IMG/VR virus record: IMGVR_UViG_3300018933_000012
Location: 1 to 24,936 of that record
DNA length: 24,936 bases
Source: a virus
Direction: 5' to 3' (one strand)
The notes below the pieces were generated by a model. It saw only the letters and a list, made by a program, of their open reading frames with translations, ran no database searches and was not told the DNA's origin. Shown here one piece after another: positions 1-8,999 of the stretch; the stretch's first letter is position 1; each line of letters begins with the position of its first letter. The position numbers and the translations under genes were made by a program.

Positions 1-95
1 AGGGAGGAGATCACCCCGCCGAGGCCGTGCAGGGCGGCGACGAGTCCGGCGTAGGAGGCGGAGTAGCCGCGGTCGAGGGTGAGGTAGAGCGCCAT
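1..95 (-). pseudogene. MFS-type transporter fragment, possibly 5'-truncated and cut by the window edge
   Basis: Reading leftwards from an ATG at 95, the translation starts MALYLTLDRGYSASYAG and continues LVAALHGLGGVIS to the window edge. This looks like the end of transmembrane helix 1 and the start of helix 2 of a major facilitator transporter. Such proteins normally have another 20-40 residues before this point. Here only a few plausible codons (RATF) precede the ATG, then CAA and an in-frame TAG at 111-113. No strong ribosome binding site is present. The simplest reading is a gene that has lost its 5' end, but a short N-terminus cannot be excluded because most of the gene lies outside the window. 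The assignment rests on about 31 residues and is tentative. Confidence 0.4.
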
Positions 96-185
96 GAAGG
101 TAGCTCTTTGCTAAACCGTACGCAACGGCCGGCCCTCGGTGCGTTCGTCGAATCGGGGGCATTCCCGAACGGGCCGAGGAACAGT

Positions 186-223
186 CCGCCCGCCGGCACC
201 GATGGAGGGGCGCCGGCGGGCGG
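186..223 (-). terminator. Hairpin terminator after the peptide cassette
   Basis: A perfect 12-bp inverted repeat, CCGCCCGCCGGC (186-197) and GCCGGCGGGCGG (212-223), encloses a 14-base loop. It begins 16 bases past the TAG stop of the last cassette gene. There is no real U tract after it, only a short TGTT, so it is a plausible GC-rich actinobacterial terminator rather than a textbook one. The rest of 96-238 holds nothing else recognisable. Confidence 0.6.
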
Positions 224-238
224 GTCGGGGACGCTGCT

Positions 239-679
239 CTACTGCTGGCGAAGGGTGTCGACGAGCTGCGGGAGTTGCTGGCGCGGGAAGTGCAGCAGTG
301 CGGCCTCGCTGAGTCCGTCGGGTTCGAGGGGCACGTTCATACGCCAGGAACCGGGGCGCCATGGGTGGCTGACGTGGTCGGCGAACGCGGGTGTCTTGGC
401 GAGCAGGGCCACGAATCGCATTGCGTCGGGGATCGGCATTTTGAGCAGGGCCCAGCCGCGGTGGTAGGCGATGAACGCCTCGCCGCCGTAGCCGAGCGGG
501 GTGTCGCGCTCGGCTCGCACGCCGGCGGTGGCCTCGCCTACGTCTTGGCAGCAGGCGGTCGTCGTGTACCCGAGGCGCCACAGTTCCCGGATGACGGGGA
601 CCATGTCCGCATCGATGGCGACGGGTTCCCCGGTACGGGTGGTGAGCGTCTCGTGCGGGTGGATCAGAGGATCGGTCAC
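239..679 (-). CDS. Hypothetical protein, last gene of the radical SAM cassette
   Basis: This encodes 146 residues from a GTG at 679, which overlaps the stop of the upstream kinase gene by four bases (GTGA). Translation is therefore coupled, and the GTG has a GGAGAG ribosome binding site. The N-terminal half contains a helix followed by LGYTTTACCQDVGE, with two adjacent cysteines. A similar pattern (a 'W-R-x-G-x-x-T-x-x-C-Q' stretch) is familiar from small actinobacterial and actinophage proteins of unknown function. The second half is mixed, with no signal peptide and no transmembrane segment. I do not recognise a family with an assigned activity. Being last in an operon with a peptide maturase and a kinase suggests an accessory or immunity role, which is inference only. 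Confidence 0.8.
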   Translation of the reverse strand: MTDPLIHPHETLTTRTGEPVAIDADMVPVIRELWRLGYTTTACCQDVGEATAGVRAERDTPLGYGGEAFIAYHRGWALLKMPIPDAMRFVALLAKTPAFADHVSHPWRPGSWRMNVPLEPDGLSEAALLHFPRQQLPQLVDTLRQQ

Positions 680-1506
680 GGGGTGCTCTCCTGGTCTTGC
701 GGCCGGCGGTAGCTCGCCCACTGGTCGGCTGCGGTCGCGAGGGCCCGTTTCCATTCGACTTCGGGGGCTTCCTCGGCGATGCCGGCCCAGAGGCGTTGCT
801 GCGCGGTGGCGAAGATGTCGAGTGCGCGCGTGGGGGCGGTGGACCATGTCGGGGTCTTGGCGGCCCACTGTTCGGCGTCTGCGGGGGTGTGGCCGGCGGA
901 GATGAGCCAGACGACCCAGCATGCGGCGTCGATCCATGCGGCGCCGCGGGTGGGCCATGCCCAGTCGACGACGCGGGCGGCGCCGTTCACGATCAGGACG
1001 TTGTCGGGTGTCCAGTCGGTGTGTAGCAGGGTCTCGCCGCGCAGCAGCTCGGCGTCGTCGGGGTGGTCGAGGTAGTCGGCGAGGCGCTGCTCGATGTGCT
1101 TCAGGTCGAGGTCGACGGGAGCGCGCACGCTGGACAGGTTGATGATCGCCTCAGCGACGAGCGGTAGGTCGTCTGAGTGGGGGCGGTAGTCGGCGGGGCG
1201 GCCGTCGAGGTGCTCGAAACCGAGCAGGTGCCACGTTCCGTCGTTGATCTCCCACAGCAGGCGTGGGGCGAGGCCGGCGACGTACGGGGCGATGGTGGCC
1301 TCGCGTTGCTGTGTCCACGCGCGGGGGTGGTTGCAGGTCAGTCCCTTGACGAACACGGGGCCGGTGCGGGTGTCGAGGGTGGCGGCGATTTCGGAGTTAC
1401 GGCCGGTGTCGGCGGTTCTTGCGGCGTAGATGGGCCCGGTACGGGCTGCGACTGCGTCGCGGGTGGCGTCGGGTAGGTCGTCCCATTGCTGTCTCATGGT
1501 CACCAC
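676..1506 (-). CDS. Aminoglycoside phosphotransferase-fold kinase
   Basis: The product has 276 residues and the architecture of the APH/choline-kinase superfamily. A nucleotide-binding strand region lies at about 35-55 with a candidate ATP lysine K54 (VFVKG). The catalytic loop is HTDWTPDN at 162-169, giving D164 as the catalytic base and N169 as a metal ligand. The second metal-binding aspartate is D181 in VVDWAWP. All key residues are present, so an active kinase is likely. The substrate is unknown: it could be a small molecule, the neighbouring peptide, or a toxic product that it inactivates. The chosen start is the GTG at 1506, because TACACT lies seven bases upstream, as expected for a leaderless mRNA. 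An ATG at 1497 is the alternative. The gene overlaps the next one by four bases. Confidence 0.85.
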   Translation of the reverse strand: MVTMRQQWDDLPDATRDAVAARTGPIYAARTADTGRNSEIAATLDTRTGPVFVKGLTCNHPRAWTQQREATIAPYVAGLAPRLLWEINDGTWHLLGFEHLDGRPADYRPHSDDLPLVAEAIINLSSVRAPVDLDLKHIEQRLADYLDHPDDAELLRGETLLHTDWTPDNVLIVNGAARVVDWAWPTRGAAWIDAACWVVWLISAGHTPADAEQWAAKTPTWSTAPTRALDIFATAQQRLWAGIAEEAPEVEWKRALATAADQWASYRRPQDQESTP

Positions 1507-1519
1507 GTGCGGGAGTGTA
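1504..1519 (-). promoter_or_regulatory. Predicted leaderless promoter (-10 TACACT) of the kinase gene
   Basis: On the minus strand TACACT (1519-1514) fits the actinobacterial -10 pattern TANNNT. It is followed by seven bases and then the GTG at 1506, so transcription would begin at or next to the start codon. No Shine-Dalgarno sequence precedes this GTG, which agrees with leaderless translation. No clear -35 box is visible. It lies directly downstream of the 1535-1565 hairpin. Confidence 0.5.
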
Positions 1520-1534
1520 GGGCTCGGGAATGGG

Positions 1535-1565
1535 CGAGGCCGCCCGCGCGCGGCGGGCGGCCTCG
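1535..1565 (-). terminator. Strong hairpin between the candidate precursor peptide and the kinase
   Basis: Perfect 13-bp arms, CGAGGCCGCCCGC (1535-1547) and GCGGGCGGCCTCG (1553-1565), enclose a five-base loop. The hairpin begins 14 bases after the TAG stop of the 47-codon gene. There is no U tract. In peptide-product operons a hairpin just after the precursor gene often limits read-through or protects the precursor mRNA. Either role fits here. Confidence 0.65.
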
Positions 1566-1579
1566 TGTGGTGGTGCGGC

Positions 1580-1723
1580 CTAGTAAGGGTTGTCTTCGCC
1601 GCAGCCGCGCATCACCTCGTTGCCGGCGAGGGCGTCGAGGTCCTCGACGAACTCGATCTCGTCCTCGACGTCCGGCCGGTTGGTGATCGTTACGGCGACG
1701 GGTGCAGTCGCTACAGGGGCCAT
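1580..1723 (-). CDS. Candidate RiPP precursor peptide, 47 residues
   Basis: The peptide starts at the ATG at 1723, seven bases after an AGAGGAAG ribosome binding site that overlaps the stop codon of the radical SAM gene. The first 15 residues are Ala/Val/Thr-rich. Residues 16-36 form a strongly acidic stretch (NRPDVEDEIEF, then VEDLDALAGNE), as expected of a leader bound by a maturase. The tail, from about residue 38, is MRGCGEDNPY, with a single cysteine (C41) and a C-terminal tyrosine. Small size, leader-like acidity, a Cys/Gly/Asn-rich tail and tight coupling to a SPASM radical SAM enzyme together suggest a ribosomally made, modified peptide. There is no transporter or dedicated protease in the visible cassette. 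I cannot assign it to a named RiPP class. Confidence 0.75.
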   Translation of the reverse strand: MAPVATAPVAVTITNRPDVEDEIEFVEDLDALAGNEVMRGCGEDNPY

Positions 1724-1737
1724 GGGTGTACTTCCTC

Positions 1738-2838
1738 TCATGCGTGCTGGCAGTACCGGTCCAGGGGCGAGCCGGCTTTGCGGTACAGGGTCACGAGCGG
1801 CATGCAGGTGGTGCACGTCTTCTGGAGGGCGCATCCACTACACCCGCTGTGACGCTGTAGCGCTCGGTCGGCGGCGTTCCCGAGCCGGGCGAGACCCGCG
1901 ACCCCCTCTTTCAGGAGTGGAATCGGATGGTCACGGGAGACTTTGCAGACGGTCGCCAGGCCGAAGGGGGTCACGTTGAGGGACGTGTGGCCGGCGTCGC
2001 ATCCGGTGAAGGGGGTTCGGTTGTGCAGGTACTCGGGTGCCTGCTGCGCGAGGGGGTCGTCGTCGCCGGCGAAGGTGGGCGACATGTGCCGGTACTCGCG
2101 CACGCGTGGGGCGAACTCCTCGGCGAGGGCGCGCATTGCCTCGGCCTCGTGGGCGTTCTTGCGCGTGATCACGACACTGAGGGAGAGCGGCAGTTCGGCC
2201 TCGCGTGCGGCATGCAACCCGTGCATGAAGGATCGGAAGGCGCCGCGGCGGTTGGTGAAGGCGTCGAAGGTGGCTTCCGTGGCCCCGTACACGCTCATGG
2301 TGACGCGGTAGGGCCGGCGTGTGCTGAGCAGGGCGCGCATACCTGGCCGGCCGAGCGTTGACCCGTTCGTGAGGATTTCCACCATCATGCCGAGGTCGTA
2401 GGCGAGTGCGTACGTCTCGGGGAAATGGCGGTCGATGGTGCACTCGCCGCCGCCCAGCTCGATCCACAGCACGCCGGCGTCTCGAAGGATGTGCAGCAGA
2501 CGCTCGCGGGGCTCCCACGCGAGTCCGTCGTGCTTCTTCTCGCCGTAGACGCAGTGGTCGCAGCTCCAGTTGCAGCCGGCGTTGACCTCGTACGAGGCGC
2601 GGCCGTGGCCGTAGGGCGAGGGGTCGCGGATCAGTACGGCGGTGCTCGGCTGCTTGTCGCCGAGGTCGAGCTGCCACCGCCGGCGGGCGGCGGTGCGCAG
2701 CCAGTCGGGCAGGGTCTCGTCGGCGACTGCTTGGCGTAACTCCAAGTAGTGGTGTCCCTTGATCTTGATTCCGCTGGAGTCCCCGGGGCGTAGCACGAGG
2801 TACTCGTCGAGAAATGGGCTTGCGATGAGCTCGTGCAT
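1738..2838 (-). CDS. Radical SAM/SPASM peptide maturase
   Basis: The 366-residue protein has the canonical CX3CX2C radical SAM motif at C89, C93 and C96 (CNWSCDHC), followed by a GGGE motif at 129-132 typical of SAM binding. The C-terminal part carries cysteines at 280, 298, 333, 336, 342, 345 and 363, the spacing of a SPASM domain with auxiliary iron-sulfur clusters. The first 80 residues are not part of the barrel. They contain a predicted strand-rich LVLRPGDSSGIKI segment followed by helices, which could be a fused peptide-recognition (PqqD-like) domain. SPASM enzymes commonly install thioether or carbon-carbon crosslinks in peptides. The 47-residue ORF starting 15 bases downstream is the obvious substrate. 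ATG 2838 has GGAGG upstream. The exact reaction cannot be read from sequence. Confidence 0.9.
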   Translation of the reverse strand: MHELIASPFLDEYLVLRPGDSSGIKIKGHHYLELRQAVADETLPDWLRTAARRRWQLDLGDKQPSTAVLIRDPSPYGHGRASYEVNAGCNWSCDHCVYGEKKHDGLAWEPRERLLHILRDAGVLWIELGGGECTIDRHFPETYALAYDLGMMVEILTNGSTLGRPGMRALLSTRRPYRVTMSVYGATEATFDAFTNRRGAFRSFMHGLHAAREAELPLSLSVVITRKNAHEAEAMRALAEEFAPRVREYRHMSPTFAGDDDPLAQQAPEYLHNRTPFTGCDAGHTSLNVTPFGLATVCKVSRDHPIPLLKEGVAGLARLGNAADRALQRHSGCSGCALQKTCTTCMPLVTLYRKAGSPLDRYCQHA

Positions 2839-2853
2839 GGTGCCTCCAGCAGC

Positions 2854-3276
2854 TCAGATGGACTCGCCGTGTGCGGGCGTGCCGTGGGGCGGAACGATAG
2901 GCAGCAGGCGGTGATCGGGTACGCGGAAGCGGAGGAACGGCCGGATTGCCCACTCAACCCAGGCTGATCCGTCGCTGAGGGAGAAGCCGCACGGTTCGCG
3001 GCGGTGCAGTGCGGCGACTGCGTGCAGGCAACCGCCGCTGTCGGTCCATTCGAGTGCGCGGTTTCGCTCTATCGGGGGAAGGGATGAGGCGAGGGTTCGC
3101 ACCTCGATCCGCACTCGGCGGATCGCCTCGGCTGGTGTGCTGACCTCGTAGCGGTTCGCCTCGTCGACTTTGCCGGCTGTAAGCGAGCGGTACCGCACTC
3201 GCTCGCACCAGAAAGCCACGTCGACCGTTGGCAAGGTTGCTCCGGGTGATCCCACTCGGGGGCGCAACGCGTGCAT
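2854..3276 (-). CDS. Hypothetical protein, first gene of the radical SAM operon
   Basis: This encodes 140 residues from the ATG at 3276, which has GGAGGGCAG upstream. An in-frame GTG at 3294 is a weaker alternative. Its stop lies 15 bases before the radical SAM start. The protein has a middle section rich in Arg/Glu (IRRVRIEVRTLASSLP). The C-terminal half contains WTDSGGCLHAVAAL and a hydrophobic-aromatic stretch WVEWAIRPFLRF, suggesting a small mixed alpha/beta domain. There is no signal peptide or clear membrane segment. I do not recognise the family. Its first position in the operon suggests a partner of the maturase or a regulator of the cassette. Confidence 0.75.
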   Translation of the reverse strand: MHALRPRVGSPGATLPTVDVAFWCERVRYRSLTAGKVDEANRYEVSTPAEAIRRVRIEVRTLASSLPPIERNRALEWTDSGGCLHAVAALHRREPCGFSLSDGSAWVEWAIRPFLRFRVPDHRLLPIVPPHGTPAHGESI

Positions 3277-3302
3277 GGCCTGCCCTCCAACCACGGGTCA
3301 AC

Positions 3303-3351
3303 GTTGCCCCCTGCCTGTTGAACGGGGCTGGCCGGTCAGGCAGGGGGCAAC
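3303..3351. repeat. Perfect 15-bp inverted repeat in the leader of the radical SAM operon
   Basis: GTTGCCCCCTGCCTG (3303-3317) and CAGGCAGGGGGCAAC (3337-3351) are exact reverse complements separated by 19 bases. The repeat ends 26 bases before the ATG at 3276, so in the predicted mRNA it would fold into a very stable hairpin just 5' of the ribosome binding site. There is no U tract. It could be a translational or transcriptional attenuator, an mRNA-stabilising stem, or a protein-binding dyad. Confidence 0.85.
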
Positions 3352-3360
3352 CCTCGGGGG

Positions 3361-3390
3361 CTCTCCCAACAGGCGTACATGCAGGGAGAG
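3361..3390. repeat. Second, smaller inverted repeat in the same leader
   Basis: CTCTCCC (3361-3367) pairs with GGGAGAG (3384-3390) across a 16-base loop, nine bases from the larger inverted repeat. Both lie in the predicted untranslated leader of about 165 bases. Confidence 0.5.
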
Positions 3391-3448
3391 TTACGCGTCG
3401 TCGCAAGCCCGGTCCTGCCTGGCCTAGCCCGGACGACGGCGCCCCCGG

Positions 3449-3478
3449 AACGTAGCGCGAGCGACGGTTGCGTATCAA
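3449..3478 (-). promoter_or_regulatory. Predicted promoter of the radical SAM operon
   Basis: On the minus strand TTGATA (3478-3473) and TACGTT (3454-3449) are separated by 18 bases. This resembles a vegetative -35/-10 pair. The -35 box lies inside a dyad that matches a motif next to the XRE regulator gene, so a regulator bound there would block RNA polymerase. The predicted leader is about 165 bases and structured. Confidence 0.5.
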
Positions 3479-3482
3479 CCGT
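3464..3482. promoter_or_regulatory. Candidate operator A (dyad ACGGTTG-5-CAACCGT)
   Basis: A perfect 7-bp dyad with a five-base centre (CGTAT) contains, on the minus strand, GTTGATACGCA. The identical 11-mer occurs at 4727-4737 beside the XRE gene, and a nine-base version occurs at 3518-3526. The dyad covers the predicted -35 box of the radical SAM operon. Confidence 0.5.
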
Positions 3483-3516
3483 TTGACGTCTAATGAGTGA
3501 GACGGCATATGCCAAC

Positions 3517-3533
3517 CGTTGATACGAGCAACG
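3517..3533. promoter_or_regulatory. Candidate operator B (CGTTG-7-CAACG)
   Basis: CGTTG and CAACG arms flank ATACGAG. The site includes GTTGATACG in the plus orientation, opposite to site A. Site A is 34 bases to its left, so A and B together form a larger divergent arrangement upstream of the peptide cassette. Confidence 0.4.
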
Positions 3534-3570
3534 AGTGCGGCCCCCCGCCGGATGGCGAGGGGCCGCTCGT
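3532..3570 (-). terminator. Hairpin after the DUF397 gene
   Basis: GCGGCCCC (3537-3544) pairs with GGGGCCGC (3559-3566). An outer ACGAG/CTCGT pairing across a two-base bulge extends the stem to about 12 bp. It starts 13 bases beyond the DUF397 stop codon and probably ends the two-gene XRE-DUF397 transcript. It lacks a U tract. Confidence 0.55.
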
Positions 3571-3583
3571 GCTGGCGGGGCGA

Positions 3584-3775
3584 TCAGATCAAGTTGTCGA
3601 ACTCGCCATCCTTGGCGCCCAGCAGGAAGGCGAGCAGCTTCGTGCGGCTCGTCCGCACGACCACGTCGGGATTGTCGCTCTCGCGCATGAGGATCTCGCC
3701 GCCGTGCTCGGCGAGCTCCAGGCAGTTGCCCTCAGAGTCCGTCGAGTATGAGGACTTTTGCCAGTTGATTTCCAC
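3584..3775 (-). CDS. DUF397 protein (WhiJ/Scr2-type partner)
   Basis: The 63-residue product has the DUF397 signature: WQKSSYS at 5-11, GNCLELA at 16-22, then a strand with RESDNPD and a C-terminal AFLLGAKDGEF. In Streptomyces these small proteins are encoded beside XRE/DUF5753 regulators and act with them in development or antibiotic control, in some cases as toxin-antitoxin-like pairs. The start chosen is GTG 3775, because GAAGG lies about ten bases upstream. GTG 3784, only four bases past the XRE stop, is possible and would add three residues. The gene is cotranscribed with the XRE gene. Confidence 0.9.
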   Translation of the reverse strand: MEINWQKSSYSTDSEGNCLELAEHGGEILMRESDNPDVVVRTSRTKLLAFLLGAKDGEFDNLI

Positions 3776-3788
3776 TATTCCCACGCCT

Positions 3789-4640
3789 TCATACTTGTTG
3801 TGCAATTTCGCGGATAAAGTCGCGTGTTCGTTCGGGATCGAGTGATTTCTCTTCGGTTCGATCAAGAACTGCTCGGTAGTTGGCGAGACGCGTTTCGGCG
3901 TCGAGAAACGCGGGACCGTGCGGCGTATCCGTCTGCACCGTGTCGAGCTGGGGCACTACCCCATACACATAGAGTGTCGAGCTTCCGGCGTTCGGGAAAC
4001 CTCCGACGTGAAAGGGAATGACCCGCACGGTCACGTTGTCTCGTTCGGACTGCTTCAGCAGGTAGTCGAGCTGAGCGCGAGCGATCTCGGGGCCACCAAA
4101 GGACATGCGCAGCGCAGCCTCGTGGATCAAGAAAGTGCAGGTCGGCGCGTTCGGGCGGTCGAGCACGTCGCGGCGCTTCAAGCGATGCGACAGTCGTCGC
4201 CGAAGGGCTATCGGGCTGAGCGGTGGAACGGCTTCCTCGAAAACGGCCCGAGCGTAGTCCTCGGTCTGAAGCAAGCCAGGCATATGCATGATCTGAACGG
4301 CGCGAAGCGCACGCGCATGGTGCTCCAGCTCGGCCAGATCGAGCGCGCCGGCGGAAAGATCGTTGCGGTAGTCCTCCCACCATCCCTTTCCGCGTTCCTC
4401 GGCCATGTCTGCGAGTGCCTCGACGTACTGCTCATCCGGGCATCCATACAGGCTCGCCCATGTGCGCACGCGTTCACCGCTCACGCCGAAACGGCCCGAC
4501 TCGGTGTTGCTGATGCTCGTCCGATCGGTGCTGAGCAGCGCCCCCGCATCGACGAGCGATAGGCCGGCGTGCTCCCTGAGCTTCCGCAGCTCCGAACCGA
4601 GCCGACGCTGCCGCGCGGTCGGGGCCTTCCTGGGTGGCAT
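3789..4640 (-). CDS. XRE-family regulator with DUF5753 domain
   Basis: This is a 283-residue regulator. A helix-turn-helix occupies about residues 14-70 (LRKLREHAGLSL, then LLSTDRTSISNTESGR), and a DUF5753 ligand or partner domain about 95-275 (MPGLLQTEDYARAVF; the FLIHEAALRMSFGG and VIPFHVGGFPNAGSS segments). This architecture is the Scr1/WhiJ-like class abundant in Streptomyces. The ATG at 4640 has a strong AGGAGGGG ribosome binding site. It is transcribed away from an RsbW-like ATPase gene and toward the DUF397 gene. The GTTGATACGCA motif 87 bases upstream is a candidate autoregulatory site, and the same motif lies in the promoter region of the radical SAM cassette. Confidence 0.92.
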   Translation of the reverse strand: MPPRKAPTARQRRLGSELRKLREHAGLSLVDAGALLSTDRTSISNTESGRFGVSGERVRTWASLYGCPDEQYVEALADMAEERGKGWWEDYRNDLSAGALDLAELEHHARALRAVQIMHMPGLLQTEDYARAVFEEAVPPLSPIALRRRLSHRLKRRDVLDRPNAPTCTFLIHEAALRMSFGGPEIARAQLDYLLKQSERDNVTVRVIPFHVGGFPNAGSSTLYVYGVVPQLDTVQTDTPHGPAFLDAETRLANYRAVLDRTEEKSLDPERTRDFIREIAQQV

Positions 4641-4675
4641 GGGCTCCCCTCCTGTCGGGTCTCAGTGTGGCCCGT

Positions 4676-4703
4676 GTCCTAACAAGGGTCCACCTCGTTC
4701 CAA
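4676..4703 (-). promoter_or_regulatory. Possible promoter of the XRE gene
   Basis: On the minus strand TTGGAA (4703-4698) and TAGGAC (4681-4676) are spaced by 16 bases, an acceptable vegetative promoter 36 bases or more upstream of the ATG at 4640. The match is moderate. The 4641-4888 gap otherwise holds operator C and the leader of the plus-strand gene. Confidence 0.35.
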
Positions 4704-4726
4704 AGGTGAGCCCGAGGGGTACCACT

Positions 4727-4741
4727 GTTGATACGCACACG
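4727..4741. promoter_or_regulatory. Candidate operator C (GTTGATACGCA)
   Basis: This 11-mer in the divergent XRE/ATPase intergenic region is identical to the minus-strand sequence of operator A at 3482-3464. It is placed where a regulator could control both divergent transcripts. The flanking bases do not form as good a dyad as site A. Confidence 0.45.
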
Positions 4742-4888
4742 CTACCGTCTTCACAGCACCGCGCAGCCTGCCGGTAAATCCGCAGTGCAGCCATGGCGCG
4801 GCGTGCCTCGGTGCGCCTGCGCCCCCTCATGTGGCCCGGCCACGGTGGCGAGCAGCGCGAGCTATGGACCGCGTTGGGAGACGACGAC

Positions 4889-5338
4889 ATGACGAACACA
4901 GCCTTAGTACCTCCCGCACAGCCAGGTGTAAGGGGCGTGAGCTACCGGCTCACCGCTCCGAGCCTGGCCACTACGCCGAAGATCGCCCGAGACTGGGTCG
5001 CCCTGGTGCTCCGGACCGCGAACCTGCCGCGGCTCGTCGAGCCGGCCCGGGTCTGTACCTCCGAGGTGGTCACCAACGCCCACTGGCACAGCCGAACCTC
5101 GTTGATCACCGTCGAGGTAACGCTCGCGCACCGGCAGACGACTGTGCTCGTGCGCGACAACAACCCGAACGAGCTGCCGCTGCTCGTTCCCGCAGACCGA
5201 TACGCACGCGACGAGCACGGGCGCGGCCTGCTGCTGGTCGACTCCCTCGCCGCCGACTGGAACGTGCGAATCCTGGGCGATCACGCGAAGGCGGTCTATT
5301 TCACGCTCATCGACCATGAAGGGAGCGCCGCCGCATGA
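4889..5338 (+). CDS. RsbW-like histidine-kinase-fold ATPase (anti-sigma type)
   Basis: The product is a 149-residue single-domain GHKL ATPase. The N box is at E59-N63 (SEVVTNAHWHS), the G1 box centres on D90 (VRDNNP), and the G2 box is GRGLLLV at 111-117. These stand-alone ATP-binding proteins are common in Streptomyces beside XRE-DUF397 pairs (whiJ- and abaA-like loci) and are related to anti-sigma factors. The ATG at 4889 was preferred over an upstream ATG at 4793 because it has GGGAG in place and starts just before the conserved domain. The next gene overlaps it by four bases (ATGA), so the two are coupled. Confidence 0.88.
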   Translation: MTNTALVPPAQPGVRGVSYRLTAPSLATTPKIARDWVALVLRTANLPRLVEPARVCTSEVVTNAHWHSRTSLITVEVTLAHRQTTVLVRDNNPNELPLLVPADRYARDEHGRGLLLVDSLAADWNVRILGDHAKAVYFTLIDHEGSAAA

Positions 5339-5664
5339 TGTTCAACGACCGCGTGTTCTGGGGAGCGTTGATCCTCGCTGTGAGCGCCTTACTGCTCGCG
5401 CTGCTGATCATGTGGGCCCTGTTGCCGAACCCGCACCGCGGTTTCACGCCGCCGCCGTTGGACCGGGACGGGTACACGTACACCTGCTTCTGCTGGCAGG
5501 ACACCGTGCGCGTCACGATCCTTGCCGAGCCACCGCCCAAGAGGAAGCACGCGCGCCACGCACGCGCCCCAAAGGTCCACCGCGTCCGCCCGAGCTCGTC
5601 TCCCAACGTGGGGGCGGACGGCGGCAGGGAGGGGAGAGCAGTTCCTATGCCCGCGGCTGTGTAA
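5335..5664 (+). CDS. Small single-pass membrane protein with basic tail
   Basis: The product has 109 residues. A hydrophobic helix at about 8-30 (ALILAVSALLLALLIMWALL) is followed by a Pro-rich linker, a CFC pair at 51-53, and a C-terminal tail rich in Lys, Arg and His from about residue 68. The topology suggests one membrane anchor with a basic tail. It starts within the stop codon of the ATPase gene (ATGA), so it is translated with it and may work with that ATPase at the membrane. No family is recognised. Confidence 0.75.
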   Translation: MMFNDRVFWGALILAVSALLLALLIMWALLPNPHRGFTPPPLDRDGYTYTCFCWQDTVRVTILAEPPPKRKHARHARAPKVHRVRPSSSPNVGADGGREGRAVPMPAAV

Positions 5665-5687
5665 GTCGTGCGCATGGTGACCCCCTA

Positions 5688-5728
5688 GAGAGGGCCCTCG
5701 ACGTTCCGCGGCCGTCGAGGGTCCTCTC
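5688..5728 (+). terminator. Hairpin ending the ATPase-membrane protein operon
   Basis: GAGAGGGCCCTCGACG (5688-5703) and CGTCGAGGGTCCTCTC (5713-5728) pair over 16 positions with one mismatch around a nine-base loop, 24 bases after the plus-strand stop. It faces the phage terminator at 5751-5789, and the two may act as a bidirectional barrier. Confidence 0.7.
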
Positions 5729-5750
5729 GCGTGTCCAGCAACGACAAAGG

Positions 5751-5789
5751 GCGCCCCCGCTACTGGCACGAGGCCGGTAGCGGGGGCGC
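5751..5789 (-). terminator. Terminator of the phage late operon
   Basis: Perfect 13-bp arms, GCGCCCCCGCTAC (5751-5763) and GTAGCGGGGGCGC (5777-5789), lie six bases past the stop of the last phage gene. They are followed on the minus strand by CCTTTGTC. This marks the visible end of the leftward phage transcript. Confidence 0.8.
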
Positions 5790-5795
5790 AGTGTC

Positions 5796-6137
5796 TCAGG
5801 GGGTGTCGTCGGGGGCGATCCGTCGTGTGCGCTCGTCGACTCGGTCGACGGCGTCACGCAAGGATGCGCCGGAATTGGGGTGCAGTTCGTGCTCGACGCG
5901 TTCGAGCTTGGCCTCGATGGTGCCGAGCCGGCTCATGACGCCGGGACGGGCCGGCACACCCGGGCGGCCCGGTGTTCCCTGCCAGTCATCGACGAAGTCC
6001 TCGACCTTGCCGGCGATGCGGCGCACGGATCGCGTCGCGCGCCACGCGAGGGTGAGCGCGCCCGTGATGGCGACGACCGCGCCGCACCAGAGCACCGCGG
6101 CGTCGAGGGATGCGACACCGGTCGTCGCTGCGCTCAC
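5796..6137 (-). CDS. Small phage membrane protein of the lysis cassette
   Basis: This encodes 113 residues from GTG 6137, which overlaps the holin stop by four bases and has AAAGGAAG upstream. One transmembrane helix lies at about 13-31 (AVLWCGAVVAITGALTLAW). It is followed by a cytoplasmic part with a short GRPGVPARPG segment and an amphipathic, probably coiled-coil helix at about 67-105. A membrane protein of this layout (DUF2746-like) often follows the holin in actinophages, where it may be a second holin-like or spanin-like lysis factor. That function is inferred from position. Confidence 0.8.
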   Translation of the reverse strand: MSAATTGVASLDAAVLWCGAVVAITGALTLAWRATRSVRRIAGKVEDFVDDWQGTPGRPGVPARPGVMSRLGTIEAKLERVEHELHPNSGASLRDAVDRVDERTRRIAPDDTP

Positions 6138-6397
6138 TCGGTGCGGTCTTCCTTTCGGGACAGGGCGAGCAGCCGGTCGTCGGCGGTCGGCTCGGCGCGC
6201 AGCCAGGCGGGCAGTAGGGCCTGTACGCCCGGAAGGCTCATCACGCGTGCCAGTCCGCCGGCGACGGCGAGCGCGCCGGCGACCCACGGGAGGGATGCGG
6301 GGATGCCGGACGCGTCGACGATGGCCGGCAGTAGTACGGCCAGGGCGACCGCGGTCTGCACAACTGTGCGGGCGGTGCGGCGGTTGGCGTCGGTCAT
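6134..6397 (-). CDS. Holin
   Basis: The product has 87 residues from ATG 6397, with GTGAGG upstream. Two hydrophobic helices lie at about 11-28 (VVQTAVALAVLLPAIV) and 37-53 (LPWVAGALAVAGGLARV), and the C-terminal tail is charged. The gene lies directly downstream of the endolysin and is coupled to another small membrane protein. Size, two-helix topology and position all fit an actinophage holin, which permeabilises the membrane at the end of infection and lets the endolysin reach the wall. Confidence 0.85.
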   Translation of the reverse strand: MTDANRRTARTVVQTAVALAVLLPAIVDASGIPASLPWVAGALAVAGGLARVMSLPGVQALLPAWLRAEPTADDRLLALSRKEDRTE

Positions 6398-6422
6398 GGG
6401 TGGTGCCTCACTTCCTATGGGA

Positions 6423-6456
6423 ACGGGCCACCCGCGCGTGTGTGCGGGTGGCCCGT
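6423..6456 (-). terminator. Perfect hairpin between endolysin and holin genes
   Basis: ACGGGCCACCCGC (6423-6435) and GCGGGTGGCCCGT (6444-6456) form a 13-bp stem with an eight-base loop, entirely between the endolysin stop and the holin start. There is no U tract, so it may be a partial terminator or an mRNA processing or stability element setting the endolysin/holin ratio. Confidence 0.55.
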
Positions 6457-6467
6457 GGGGTGGGTGG

Positions 6468-7334
6468 TCAGACCTTGGGGACCTTGAGCGCGTCCCAGCT
6501 CTTGCGGCCGGGCCAACCGTCGGCGTCGCGCCCGGTGTATCCGAGCTTGCGCTGCCACTTCGCGTACGAGCGGAGGTCGGCGGCAGTGAACTGCGGGCCC
6601 GGTCCCTGGCTGTAGGCGCCGCAGCGCTCGGCGACGAGGCGCCGGCCCATGGCCGTGATGATCGCCGAGCGCGGGTACCGCTTGAAGAACTCGACCCCCG
6701 GGAACGGCTCGAACTTCGGGGCCGGCACGGGCCGGCCCGGCTTGGTGGAGAGCCGGCGGTCGATGCGCTCACGCATGGTGGTCATGGAGAAACCGCGCGG
6801 GTCGGTCTTCTGGTTGGTCCACTCCTTGTGGCCGATCACGCTCGCGGCGCTCCACCCGTACGCACGGCAGATTGCCGCGGACACGCGCTCGATGGCGTCG
6901 AGCTGCTCGTCGGGCCACGGGTCGGCACCATTACCGAGGTTGATGGCTTCGAACCCGTAGAAGTGCACGTTGCCGTCGGCGCTGCGGTCGTTCGGGGCCG
7001 GCAGCGCACGCTCGTCGCGGACGGCGGCGAGCACGTCGGCGTCGCCGGCGCCGGCGTGGTTGGCGCGGCCGGCGCTGATCAGGTAGACGTCACCGTTCTT
7101 GGCAATCACGCCGTGACACAGCGGGCCCGGGAGTGCGGCGTACCCGTCGTAGCAGAGGCGCACCGAGTGGTCGGTGCCGCTGGAAACGGTGTGGTGGATC
7201 ATGACGCCATTGATGGGCCCGAACGTCCCGCGGTGGTTGCGGTTGTGGGTGCGCCACTGGCCGTACTCGATGACGCGTACGCCCTCGGTGCGCAGAATCG
7301 CGGCGAGCCGATCGGGGGTGAAGGGGGTTGCCAT
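6468..7334 (-). CDS. Endolysin: N-acetylmuramoyl-L-alanine amidase with C-terminal wall-binding domain
   Basis: The 288-residue protein begins at ATG 7334. An amidase_2 (PGRP-like) domain covers about residues 20-195. Likely zinc ligands are H47 in MIHHTVSS, H169 in GHKEW and D178 in KTDPRG. NHAG at 92-95 and FEAINLGNG at 128-136 are also family features. The C-terminal domain, about 205-288, ends with a peptidoglycan-binding type repeat (SYAKWQRKLGYTGRDADGWPG). It would cut the bond between muramic acid and the stem peptide. No signal peptide is present, so release depends on the holin encoded next. Confidence 0.93.
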   Translation of the reverse strand: MATPFTPDRLAAILRTEGVRVIEYGQWRTHNRNHRGTFGPINGVMIHHTVSSGTDHSVRLCYDGYAALPGPLCHGVIAKNGDVYLISAGRANHAGAGDADVLAAVRDERALPAPNDRSADGNVHFYGFEAINLGNGADPWPDEQLDAIERVSAAICRAYGWSAASVIGHKEWTNQKTDPRGFSMTTMRERIDRRLSTKPGRPVPAPKFEPFPGVEFFKRYPRSAIITAMGRRLVAERCGAYSQGPGPQFTAADLRSYAKWQRKLGYTGRDADGWPGRKSWDALKVPKV

Positions 7335-7355
7335 GGGTGGGTGTCTCCAGACATG

Positions 7356-7386
7356 AAGAAACGCCCGCGGCACAGTGCCGGGGCGT
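7356..7386 (-). terminator. Intrinsic terminator between tail fibre and endolysin
   Basis: On the minus strand ACGCCCCGGCAC and GTGCCGCGGGCGT pair with one bulged base around a short loop, directly followed by TTTCTTC. It lies between the fibre stop (7410) and the endolysin start (7334). It separates structural from lysis genes, so lysis expression needs read-through, antitermination or its own promoter. Confidence 0.75.
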
Positions 7387-7409
7387 GCGAAAGAGGGAGG
7401 GGTGCGGGG

Positions 7410-8999
7410 CTATGCCAAGCCGCACCAGAAGCGGTTGGCGCCGTTCTCCATGGCGCCGAGGTTGATCGAGGCCGGGGCGGAGGTGCCGCCGGTGGCGAAC
7501 ACGCCGAAGCGCTTGACGGCGGTGTATCCGAAGACGTTCGGGGGAGCGCCGGCGCTGGACTCCGCGGCGAGCAGCATGGGCCCGTTGCCGGTCGTGGTGT
7601 TGTACTGGAGTCGCCAGGCCACGTAGTAGATGCCGGCCGCGGCCGAGTACGCGCCCGTGAGCGGCGAGCTGATCGTCGCGCCGCCGGCGTTGTGCACCTC
7701 GGCCGGTTCGTACGTGGCGGTGGACATGTCGCCGGTCGCTGCAACGCGGGTGCCGGCGCTGTTGTAGATCGCTGCCCACGATCCCGCGGTGAGGCCGCCG
7801 GCGTATCCGGTCGCGAACCACACGACGCGGTCAATCGTTGCTGGCGCTCGGAGGATCAGGGCGGTTACTCGGATCGGGCCCGATCCGGGGTAGAGGGCCG
7901 TGGACTGTGCGAGCACGGGGTCGAACGCCCAGGCGAGCAGTCCGTGATCAGCCGGCGACCACTCGCCGGCGAACGCCGCGGCGTCTACGTACGACTTCCG
8001 GGCAAGGTGGTTCGCGGTCGTCGGGGCTGCGGTCGACGAGGGCACGGTGCTGAACGTCTTGGCGCCGCTGATCGTCTGCGTGCCGGCGAGGAGTACCGCG
8101 GTCCCGGCGGCTTCGGCTCCCACCTCCGCGGCTGTGTGGGTGTGTGTGGACGTGGCCGCTCCCACATCGCCGGCGTTGAGGACGACGTCGCCCTGCTTGC
8201 CGTTGACGGACGTCACCGCGCCGCCGCCTGACGTGGCGGGGAGCTGCGCCGTGGGCACCTTGCCGTCAGGGCCGAGGGTGGCGACGCCGCCGGCACTGCC
8301 GGCCGCAGTAGTCGGGATCGCGCCGACGTCGGCAGCAGCGAGGACAATGTCGGCGGACGACTGGCCATTGACGGACTGGACGACGCCGGCCGGACCGGTG
8401 GGGCCGGCTGGCCCCGTGGCGCCGGTGGGTCCGGCCGGCCCTTGCGGACCGGTGGGCCCGACCGGGCCTTGCTCGCCGCGCGGCCCGGTGGCGCCGGCTG
8501 GTCCCTGGGGGCCGGTGGGCCCGACCGGGCCCTGATCTCCCTTCGCTCCGGTGGGGCCGACGAGCGAGGCGAGCCACTGCTGCTCGGTACCGGTGAAGCC
8601 CTCGGCGACGGCAACCTCGTAGGCCGAGGCGCCCCGTACGGCGACATACTGCGGCTTGCTGGGGTCGCGCGGGGCGACGTCGGCGAGGTCGACCTCGGGC
8701 TGCTCGGCCGGCAGCAGCAGCGCGTACGAGCGGCCTGGCTGGATGCCGGCGAGTTGCTCGGTCACGGTGTATGACCAGTCGGCCGGGTCCATACCCGGCG
8801 CGTCGGTGGCCGGCAGCGTTACCTCGATGGCGCCCTGGGCGTCGAGCTGCGCGACGACCGGACCACCGAGGATCACGTCGGCTTGCGAGAACGTGATCTG
8901 ACTCGGGGCGCGGAAGACGATCGACCCCGACAAGGGGCGGCCGTCCGGTGAGAGGAAGCGGGCACGAACGGTGACGGTGGGGATGGACTCAGGCAGCAC
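7410..8999 (-). CDS. Tail fibre with collagen-like repeat
   Basis: The product has 529 residues from GTG 8999, which overlaps the upstream stop by 11 bases. An N-terminal beta-rich domain (about 1-125) is followed by the linker [15 protein letters not shown], which commonly precedes collagen repeats in phage fibres. About 19 Gly-X-Y triplets follow at 148-205, rich in GPT, GPA and GPQ. Next come repeats of the VNGxxGDVVLxAxDVGA type (about 209-275), a [13 protein letters not shown] segment, and a C-terminal domain from about 320 that probably binds the host surface. It should form a trimer. A start further upstream in the same frame would overlap the previous gene heavily. Confidence 0.9.

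Follow-up and report, generated by a model that had tools for sequence, protein, structure and literature searches.

Comparison with related loci points to an XRE regulator with a DUF5753 domain that very probably works as the switch of a radical SAM peptide cassette in a Streptomyces phage, through matched operators, O1 and O2, the second of which would lie on a promoter driving the cassette as one operon. The DNA, 24,936 bases long and called the window here over its whole length, comes from a virus record; genes for portal, head, tape measure, tail fibre and endolysin are present. Control of the cassette by this XRE through matching sites had been proposed in a first-pass annotation, and the comparison speaks for it on three grounds: O2 is conserved in position and 16 of 17 such sites are next to close relatives of the XRE; the words in O1 and O2 differ together between XRE types; and the same cassette sits behind other XREs with the words of those XREs.

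Gene Organization of the Locus

At the left end of the window, the genes run leftward in the order XRE-DUF5753, DUF397, orf140, radical SAM, a precursor of 47 amino acids, a phosphotransferase-like gene and a small ORF, and an ATPase gene diverges rightward from the XRE gene (Table 1). The regulator pair is recognizable from a protein with both a helix-turn-helix (PF13560) and DUF5753 (PF19054) and from the adjoining DUF397 protein (PF04149), and the HATPase protein (PF13581), which is a common but not universal neighbor of such pairs, is also present; all four families score above cut-off. We take the HATPase protein beside the XRE to be AbaA-like. A sequence search of solved structures gave no match to the XRE, and the phage DNA collection contains no near match to positions 1-6200 of the window. 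The radical SAM gene lies beside a conserved short precursor gene, by which the locus would qualify as a radical SAM RiPP cassette; the precursor peptide of the window has no NCBIfam match. Precursors in the window, L110-L125 and L172-L174 have conserved ends like GNEVMRGCG(N/E)DNPY or CSCQADDDQPY.

Table 1. Features of the regulator locus and the peptide cassette, in positions of the window.
Feature	Position	Strand	Basis or remark
Putative operator O1, 16 bp, GTACCACTGTTGATAC on the plus strand	4719..4734		between ATPase and XRE; aligned palindrome in relatives
Putative operator O2b, 16 bp, includes -35 box	3472..3487		block conserved in 29 distinct loci
Putative operator O2a, 16 bp, abuts O2b	3488..3503		block conserved in 29 distinct loci
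Third, upstream half-site (partial copy)	3518..3526	+	partly kept in relatives
-35 box TTGATA, operon promoter	3473..3478	-	sequence; 18-bp spacing to -10 fixed in aligned loci
-10 box TACGTT	3449..3454	-	TA conserved at fixed spacing
Structured leader RNA, hairpins ~3361-3390 and ~3303-3351	3292..3399	-	model R1 match and covariation
orf140, first operon gene	2854..3276	-	family without Pfam or NCBIfam match
Radical SAM enzyme	1738..2838	-	PF04055, E 2.4e-11
Precursor peptide, 47 aa, conserved end GNEVMRGCGEDNPY	1580..1723	-	conserved in cassette relatives
Phosphotransferase-like gene (by eye), conserved cassette member	676..1497	-	no Pfam match
Small ORF, ~147 aa, start unsettled	239..682	-	adjoins cassette in some relatives
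DUF397 (BldB-like) partner	3584..3784	-	PF04149, E 3.4e-12; start inferred from relatives
XRE regulator with DUF5753	3789..4640	-	PF19054, E 8.7e-50
HATPase_c_2 (AbaA-like) protein	4889..5338	+	PF13581, E 4.3e-9; start inferred from relatives

The Shared Word and Its Chance Level

The 11-mer GTTGATACGCA occurs exactly at 4727-4737 on the plus strand and at 3469-3479 on the minus strand, and a partial 9-base copy is found at 3518-3526 on the plus strand. A 7-bp dyad, ACGGTTG-CGTAT-CAACCGT, occupies 3464-3482 and spans TATCAA, which is the -35 box TTGATA of a leftward promoter. Every coordinate that the first-pass annotation gave for the 11-mer, its reversed copy in the dyad and the third, partial copy is correct, and the dyad is indeed perfect and covers the -35 box. 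Its description of the target as a radical SAM operon holds for the promoter and the -35 box and needs correction for the genes: the first gene is the conserved orf140, of 140 amino acids, and radical SAM is the second. As an operator, the 7-bp dyad itself was rejected as incidental; relatives do not keep it, and the dyads that are conserved are of 16 bp and in another register.

By itself, the bare 11-mer repeat is weak evidence and only modestly surprising by chance. The window has 1,521 distinct 11-mers that occur at least twice. An 11-mer common to both regions (4641-4792 vs 3277-3583) arose in 70 of 2,000 paired dinucleotide shuffles, a frequency that leaves room for a chance origin of the word, and in 10 of 1,000 shuffles when regions of 150 nt were taken from fixed anchors. 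The 9-mer GTTGATACG alone is unspecific, because it recurs 5 to 35 times per genome in six related genomes (0 to 7 times for a reversed control). The first-pass annotation had considered its proposal vulnerable if the motif were common throughout the genome; this is so for the short 9-mer in the six related genomes, but the long O2 block described below, unlike the single word, is specific in the sequences of 392 genomes.

Putative Operators in Related Loci

Fifty loci were obtained by a scan for XRE relatives. Behind DUF397, GTTGATACG is exact in seven of them (L003, L004, L006, L009, L011, L013 and L049) and has one mismatch in seven others (L008, L012, L014 and L017-L020). With up to eight mismatches allowed, the longer pattern, the O2 block, turns up in 16 of the 50 loci. 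These all belong to a group of 20 in which XRE identity is 74% or more; at this threshold, the block is absent from four of those 20 (L007, L015, L016 and L046) and from all 30 loci with a less similar XRE. Furthermore, a search by DNA only, with the pattern TMTCACYCRTTAGACGTCAAAC and up to three mismatches in 392 Streptomyces genomes, returned 20 matches, which fall on 17 sites in as many genomes, while the backward control gave two single matches. Sixteen of the 17 sites, including four that repeat loci of the XRE scan, are located directly 3′ of an XRE-DUF397 pair with XRE identity of 70-87%, the exception being L061.

Loci from both searches were combined into an O2 alignment of 29 distinct sequences, the window included, after removal of four duplicates. 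Mean column information is 1.61 bits over the 33 O2 columns, 0.20 over both flanks and 1.14 in the -10 region, and O2 is followed in the aligned loci by 18 bp and then by a -10 box TASCTT or TACCGT. We interpret O2 as two abutting 16-bp inverted repeats that end in the -35 box; in the window, these would occupy 3472-3503 and overlie the -35 box of the leftward promoter that follows DUF397. Read in this manner, it is a half-site within a 16-bp operator, rather than the 11-mer, that forms the conserved unit. As for O1, a palindrome GTNNCA-N4-TGNNAC is seen at about -94 to -106 of the XRE in most close relatives; it is perfect in L009 and L016, and poorly kept in several, such as L005, L008 and L013. 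Pure chance as the origin of the shared word was dismissed only after this comparison: against the conserved position of O2 in 29 distinct loci and the presence of this XRE type next to 16 of 17 sites, its probability is negligible.

Operator Words Change with the XRE Type

Three types of recognition helix are associated with three words, each seen in both O1 and O2: DRTxISNxESGR, the type of the window, with GTMTCAC/GTATCAA, ERAQISHIESGR with GCRCAAC..TGGGAC, and DQAxISHIEAGR with TGCACCGGTGCA. The XREs with the other helices came from loci found through orf140. For pairs of loci that share a type, the best 14-base similarity of O1 to O2 comes to 11.05, 12.83 and 12.40, vs 10.51 to 10.95 across types, and the difference was reached by none of 5,000 permutations, in a set of 29 loci (20, 4 and 5 per type) in which those of the same type are related and not independent; left out were two loci whose O2 region exceeds 330 nt, and L154, for which the O1 segment was wrong. 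Within single loci of the window's XRE type, O1-O2 similarity is 10.95 vs cross-type values of 10.51 and 10.56, a small excess. The longest word shared by O1 and O2 was also compared with shuffles in eight extra loci, a chosen subset of 32 candidates: it was equaled in 0 of 300 shuffles for each of L092, L097, L103 and L166, in 10 for L096, 19 for L089, 23 for L102 and 125 for L169, the last being no better than chance. For L089, this word coincides with the -10 region.

These words bear on two readings that leave the XRE aside. If the shared word were a common -35 element for one sigma factor, its coincidence with TTGATA at O2 would be expected; however, 33 bases are conserved there, mostly upstream of the -35 box, at O1 the word does not stand at the distance of a -35 element from the -10 box read for the ATPase, and other XRE recognition helices come with other words at an unchanged promoter spacing, so that this origin is very improbable. 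Another host regulator might read O1 and O2, with the neighboring XRE merely traveling along, as could be supposed from L159, in which O2 and the leader are present and no XRE is found within 1.5 kb. Such a regulator is hard to reconcile with three XRE types that each have their own word at both places, and we regard it as improbable, if a little less so than the sigma-factor element.

The Same Cassette behind Other Regulators

In the phage contigs L172 and L174, the cassette (radical SAM identity of 80 and 78%) follows other XREs (identity of 50 and 47%), and the O1 word of each locus recurs in the region behind DUF397: the words common to the O1 and O2 regions are CATGTATGCCACG in L172 (1 of 1,000 shuffles) and GGGACGGCGCA in L174 (21 of 1,000). 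Both contigs have an extra same-strand ORF between DUF397 and radical SAM, immediately in front of the latter. In L173, the stretch examined includes the cassette and no DUF5753 XRE. Four of the five related viral contigs (L170, L171, L172 and L174) have phage late genes on the ATPase side of the module, namely tail fibre, endolysin or small ORFs behind endolysin, and the fifth, L173, has a small-ORF match only.

The radical SAM family occurs in 74 of the 392 Streptomyces genomes. A DUF5753 XRE was found near the cassette in none of 20 loci at 1.5 kb and in one of 17 at about 5 kb, the 17 stretches having been selected by hand from the radical SAM matches; by these counts, the idea that the cassette is always accompanied by an XRE-DUF397 regulator was rejected. 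Because the cassette is mostly without such an XRE nearby, XRE control is, judging from gene neighborhoods, no general property of the cassette.

O2 also has other cargo behind it: a radical SAM gene with a methyltransferase-like gene in L004, a NUDIX-like gene, assigned by eye, in L010 and L074, and a phosphotransferase-like gene in L003. At about 7576-7734 of L049, there are remnants of a short orf140 and of a radical SAM start, apparently a decayed cassette. There is about an even chance that these loci represent an exchangeable control cartridge of Streptomyces phages, made of XRE-DUF397, a matched operator at a fixed promoter and a leader RNA as a second layer. Its cargo would vary between genomes, from orf140 and radical SAM peptide genes to an orf140-radical SAM fusion with a methyltransferase or a NUDIX-like gene, and operator and regulator would have been swapped together while the peptide cassette stayed.

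Leader RNA and orf140

Two hairpins are located between the promoter and orf140. In an alignment of 21 leader sequences, 14 of 27 pairs are changed on both sides and the covariation score was reached by none of 500 shuffles, a test that leans towards the structure since the latter was set by hand on the same 21 sequences; from 27 leaders in an unaided alignment, RNAalifold recovered no more than a 4-pair helix. The model R1 matches the leader of the window, absent from its training set, with 48.2 bits (E 1.3e-6). In the 392 genomes, the leader model has 23 matches in 21 genomes, and for 20 of these matches a same-strand DUF5753 XRE lies upstream. Rfam gave no leader match in window positions 1-8000 or in six loci at E up to 1, and one weak match elsewhere per search. 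The loops are constant in relatives (TGCGCC and CTCGTCACGCC), and the second loop of the window deviates. In L159 and L168, a different small ORF, RQxLSLLIAxFGxNGALxIPKD-like, is found in the place of orf140 after the leader. Because it precedes the ribosome-binding site, the leader may act on translation or through early termination.

The end of orf140 is separated by 15 bases from the radical SAM start. Its family is found in 162 of the 392 genomes, and a DUF5753 XRE lies within 1.5 kb in 28 of the best 30 orf140 loci (same strand and upstream in 21, opposite strand in 7). A fold was predicted for orf140 with a mean pLDDT of 84.2; Foldseek gave no match to the model at E 0.001 or better, and a sequence search of solved structures returned chance-level matches only. 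The best VIA match, a ribosomal protein (Z 5.7, rmsd 4.3 over 85 residues), was not taken as meaningful. In G304, a radical SAM protein with a methyltransferase after it is fused to an orf140-like stretch, whose orf140 score is low (17.3). In L073 (2850-3941), such a stretch forms the N terminus of a radical SAM/SPASM protein, before a PCMT-like methyltransferase gene.

A Model of the Switch

In the proposed mechanism, XRE-DUF5753 would bind 16-bp operators composed of two inverted half-sites, approximately GTMTCAC and GTATCAA for the XRE type of the window. O1 overlaps the divergent promoters, as read, between ATPase and XRE, and would therefore serve autoregulation and control of the ATPase. 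At O2, a promoter behind DUF397 (TTGATA, 18 bp, TACGTT) would have its -35 box overlain by two abutting operators, and the leader RNA, orf140, radical SAM, precursor and phosphotransferase-like gene are predicted to be transcribed from this promoter as one operon.

The sign of control can be approached through WhiJ9, a regulator of the same type. According to the accessible part of the report, WhiJ9 binds DNA near its gene at direct repeats, activation of iosA requires WhiJ9 when BldB is lost, and BldB associates with BldB9 (PMC10294661). If this logic applies to the phage locus, DUF397 would be the brake and the XRE the activator: DUF397 probably restrains the XRE, a role already put forward for BldB proteins and WhiJ9, and the released XRE would activate the operon. 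We give activation slightly better than an even chance, and repression slightly less than one. Specifically, the XRE may be a plain repressor whose binding at O2 over the -35 box blocks RNA polymerase until DUF397 or an inducing signal relieves it. This accords with the position of TTGATA, near the usual consensus, inside O2b, with the overlap of O1 and the XRE's own promoter as read, and with a phage setting that resembles lysogenic repression; however, characterised relatives, as far as the consulted parts of the reports tell, activate their neighbors or antibiotic production (PMC10294661, PMC6262351), and such a plain repressor is a real but somewhat doubtful possibility.

A switch by matched operators would have consequences beyond this phage. 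XRE-DUF397 pairs are numerous in Streptomyces, and targets are known for only a minority of them; should O1 and O2 match as a rule, the sequence upstream of each pair would reveal its word, matching would then lead to its target promoter, and a testable key for the recognition helix would be obtained. It would also predict switching of a phage-borne peptide cassette and highlights a conserved leader RNA without an Rfam entry.

Comparison with Known Systems

The open-licence literature yielded no operator of a DUF5753 protein before a peptide cassette, and among titles and abstract openings retrieved for GTTGATAC with Streptomyces, none evidently concerns such a site. Scr1/Scr2 and fourteen XRE-DUF397 pairs of S. 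coelicolor are the same gene pair in the role of antibiotic-production regulators; a term search of these articles found no mention of a motif, a palindrome or TTGATA (PMC6262351, PMC10364602). DUF397-DUF5753 pairs in graspetide clusters are likewise beside peptide-modification genes, but these are ATP-grasp clusters, and no operator or phage context is reported in the sections consulted (PMC13097080, PMC8939145).

WhiJ9-BldB9-iosA of Streptomyces venezuelae, for which autorepression has been suggested, is alike in combining an XRE/WhiJ-type regulator and a DUF397/BldB partner with a small neighbor gene and repeated sites (PMC10294661, in part). The WhiJ9 site lies 113 bp upstream of a leaderless gene and has CGXXCTCAAC as a direct repeat in three copies (PMC10294661). 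The phage locus is different: three such direct repeats are absent from the window region, which has inverted 16-bp sites over a -35 box, a structured leader, a downstream gene and a peptide cassette. A scan for direct repeats at nine loci whose orf140 has no same-strand XRE was uninformative on identity with IosA. The two proteins, orf140 and IosA, are alike in size and charge, with 15.6 vs 15 kDa and pI 9.5 vs 10.3, respectively (PMC10294661 for IosA).
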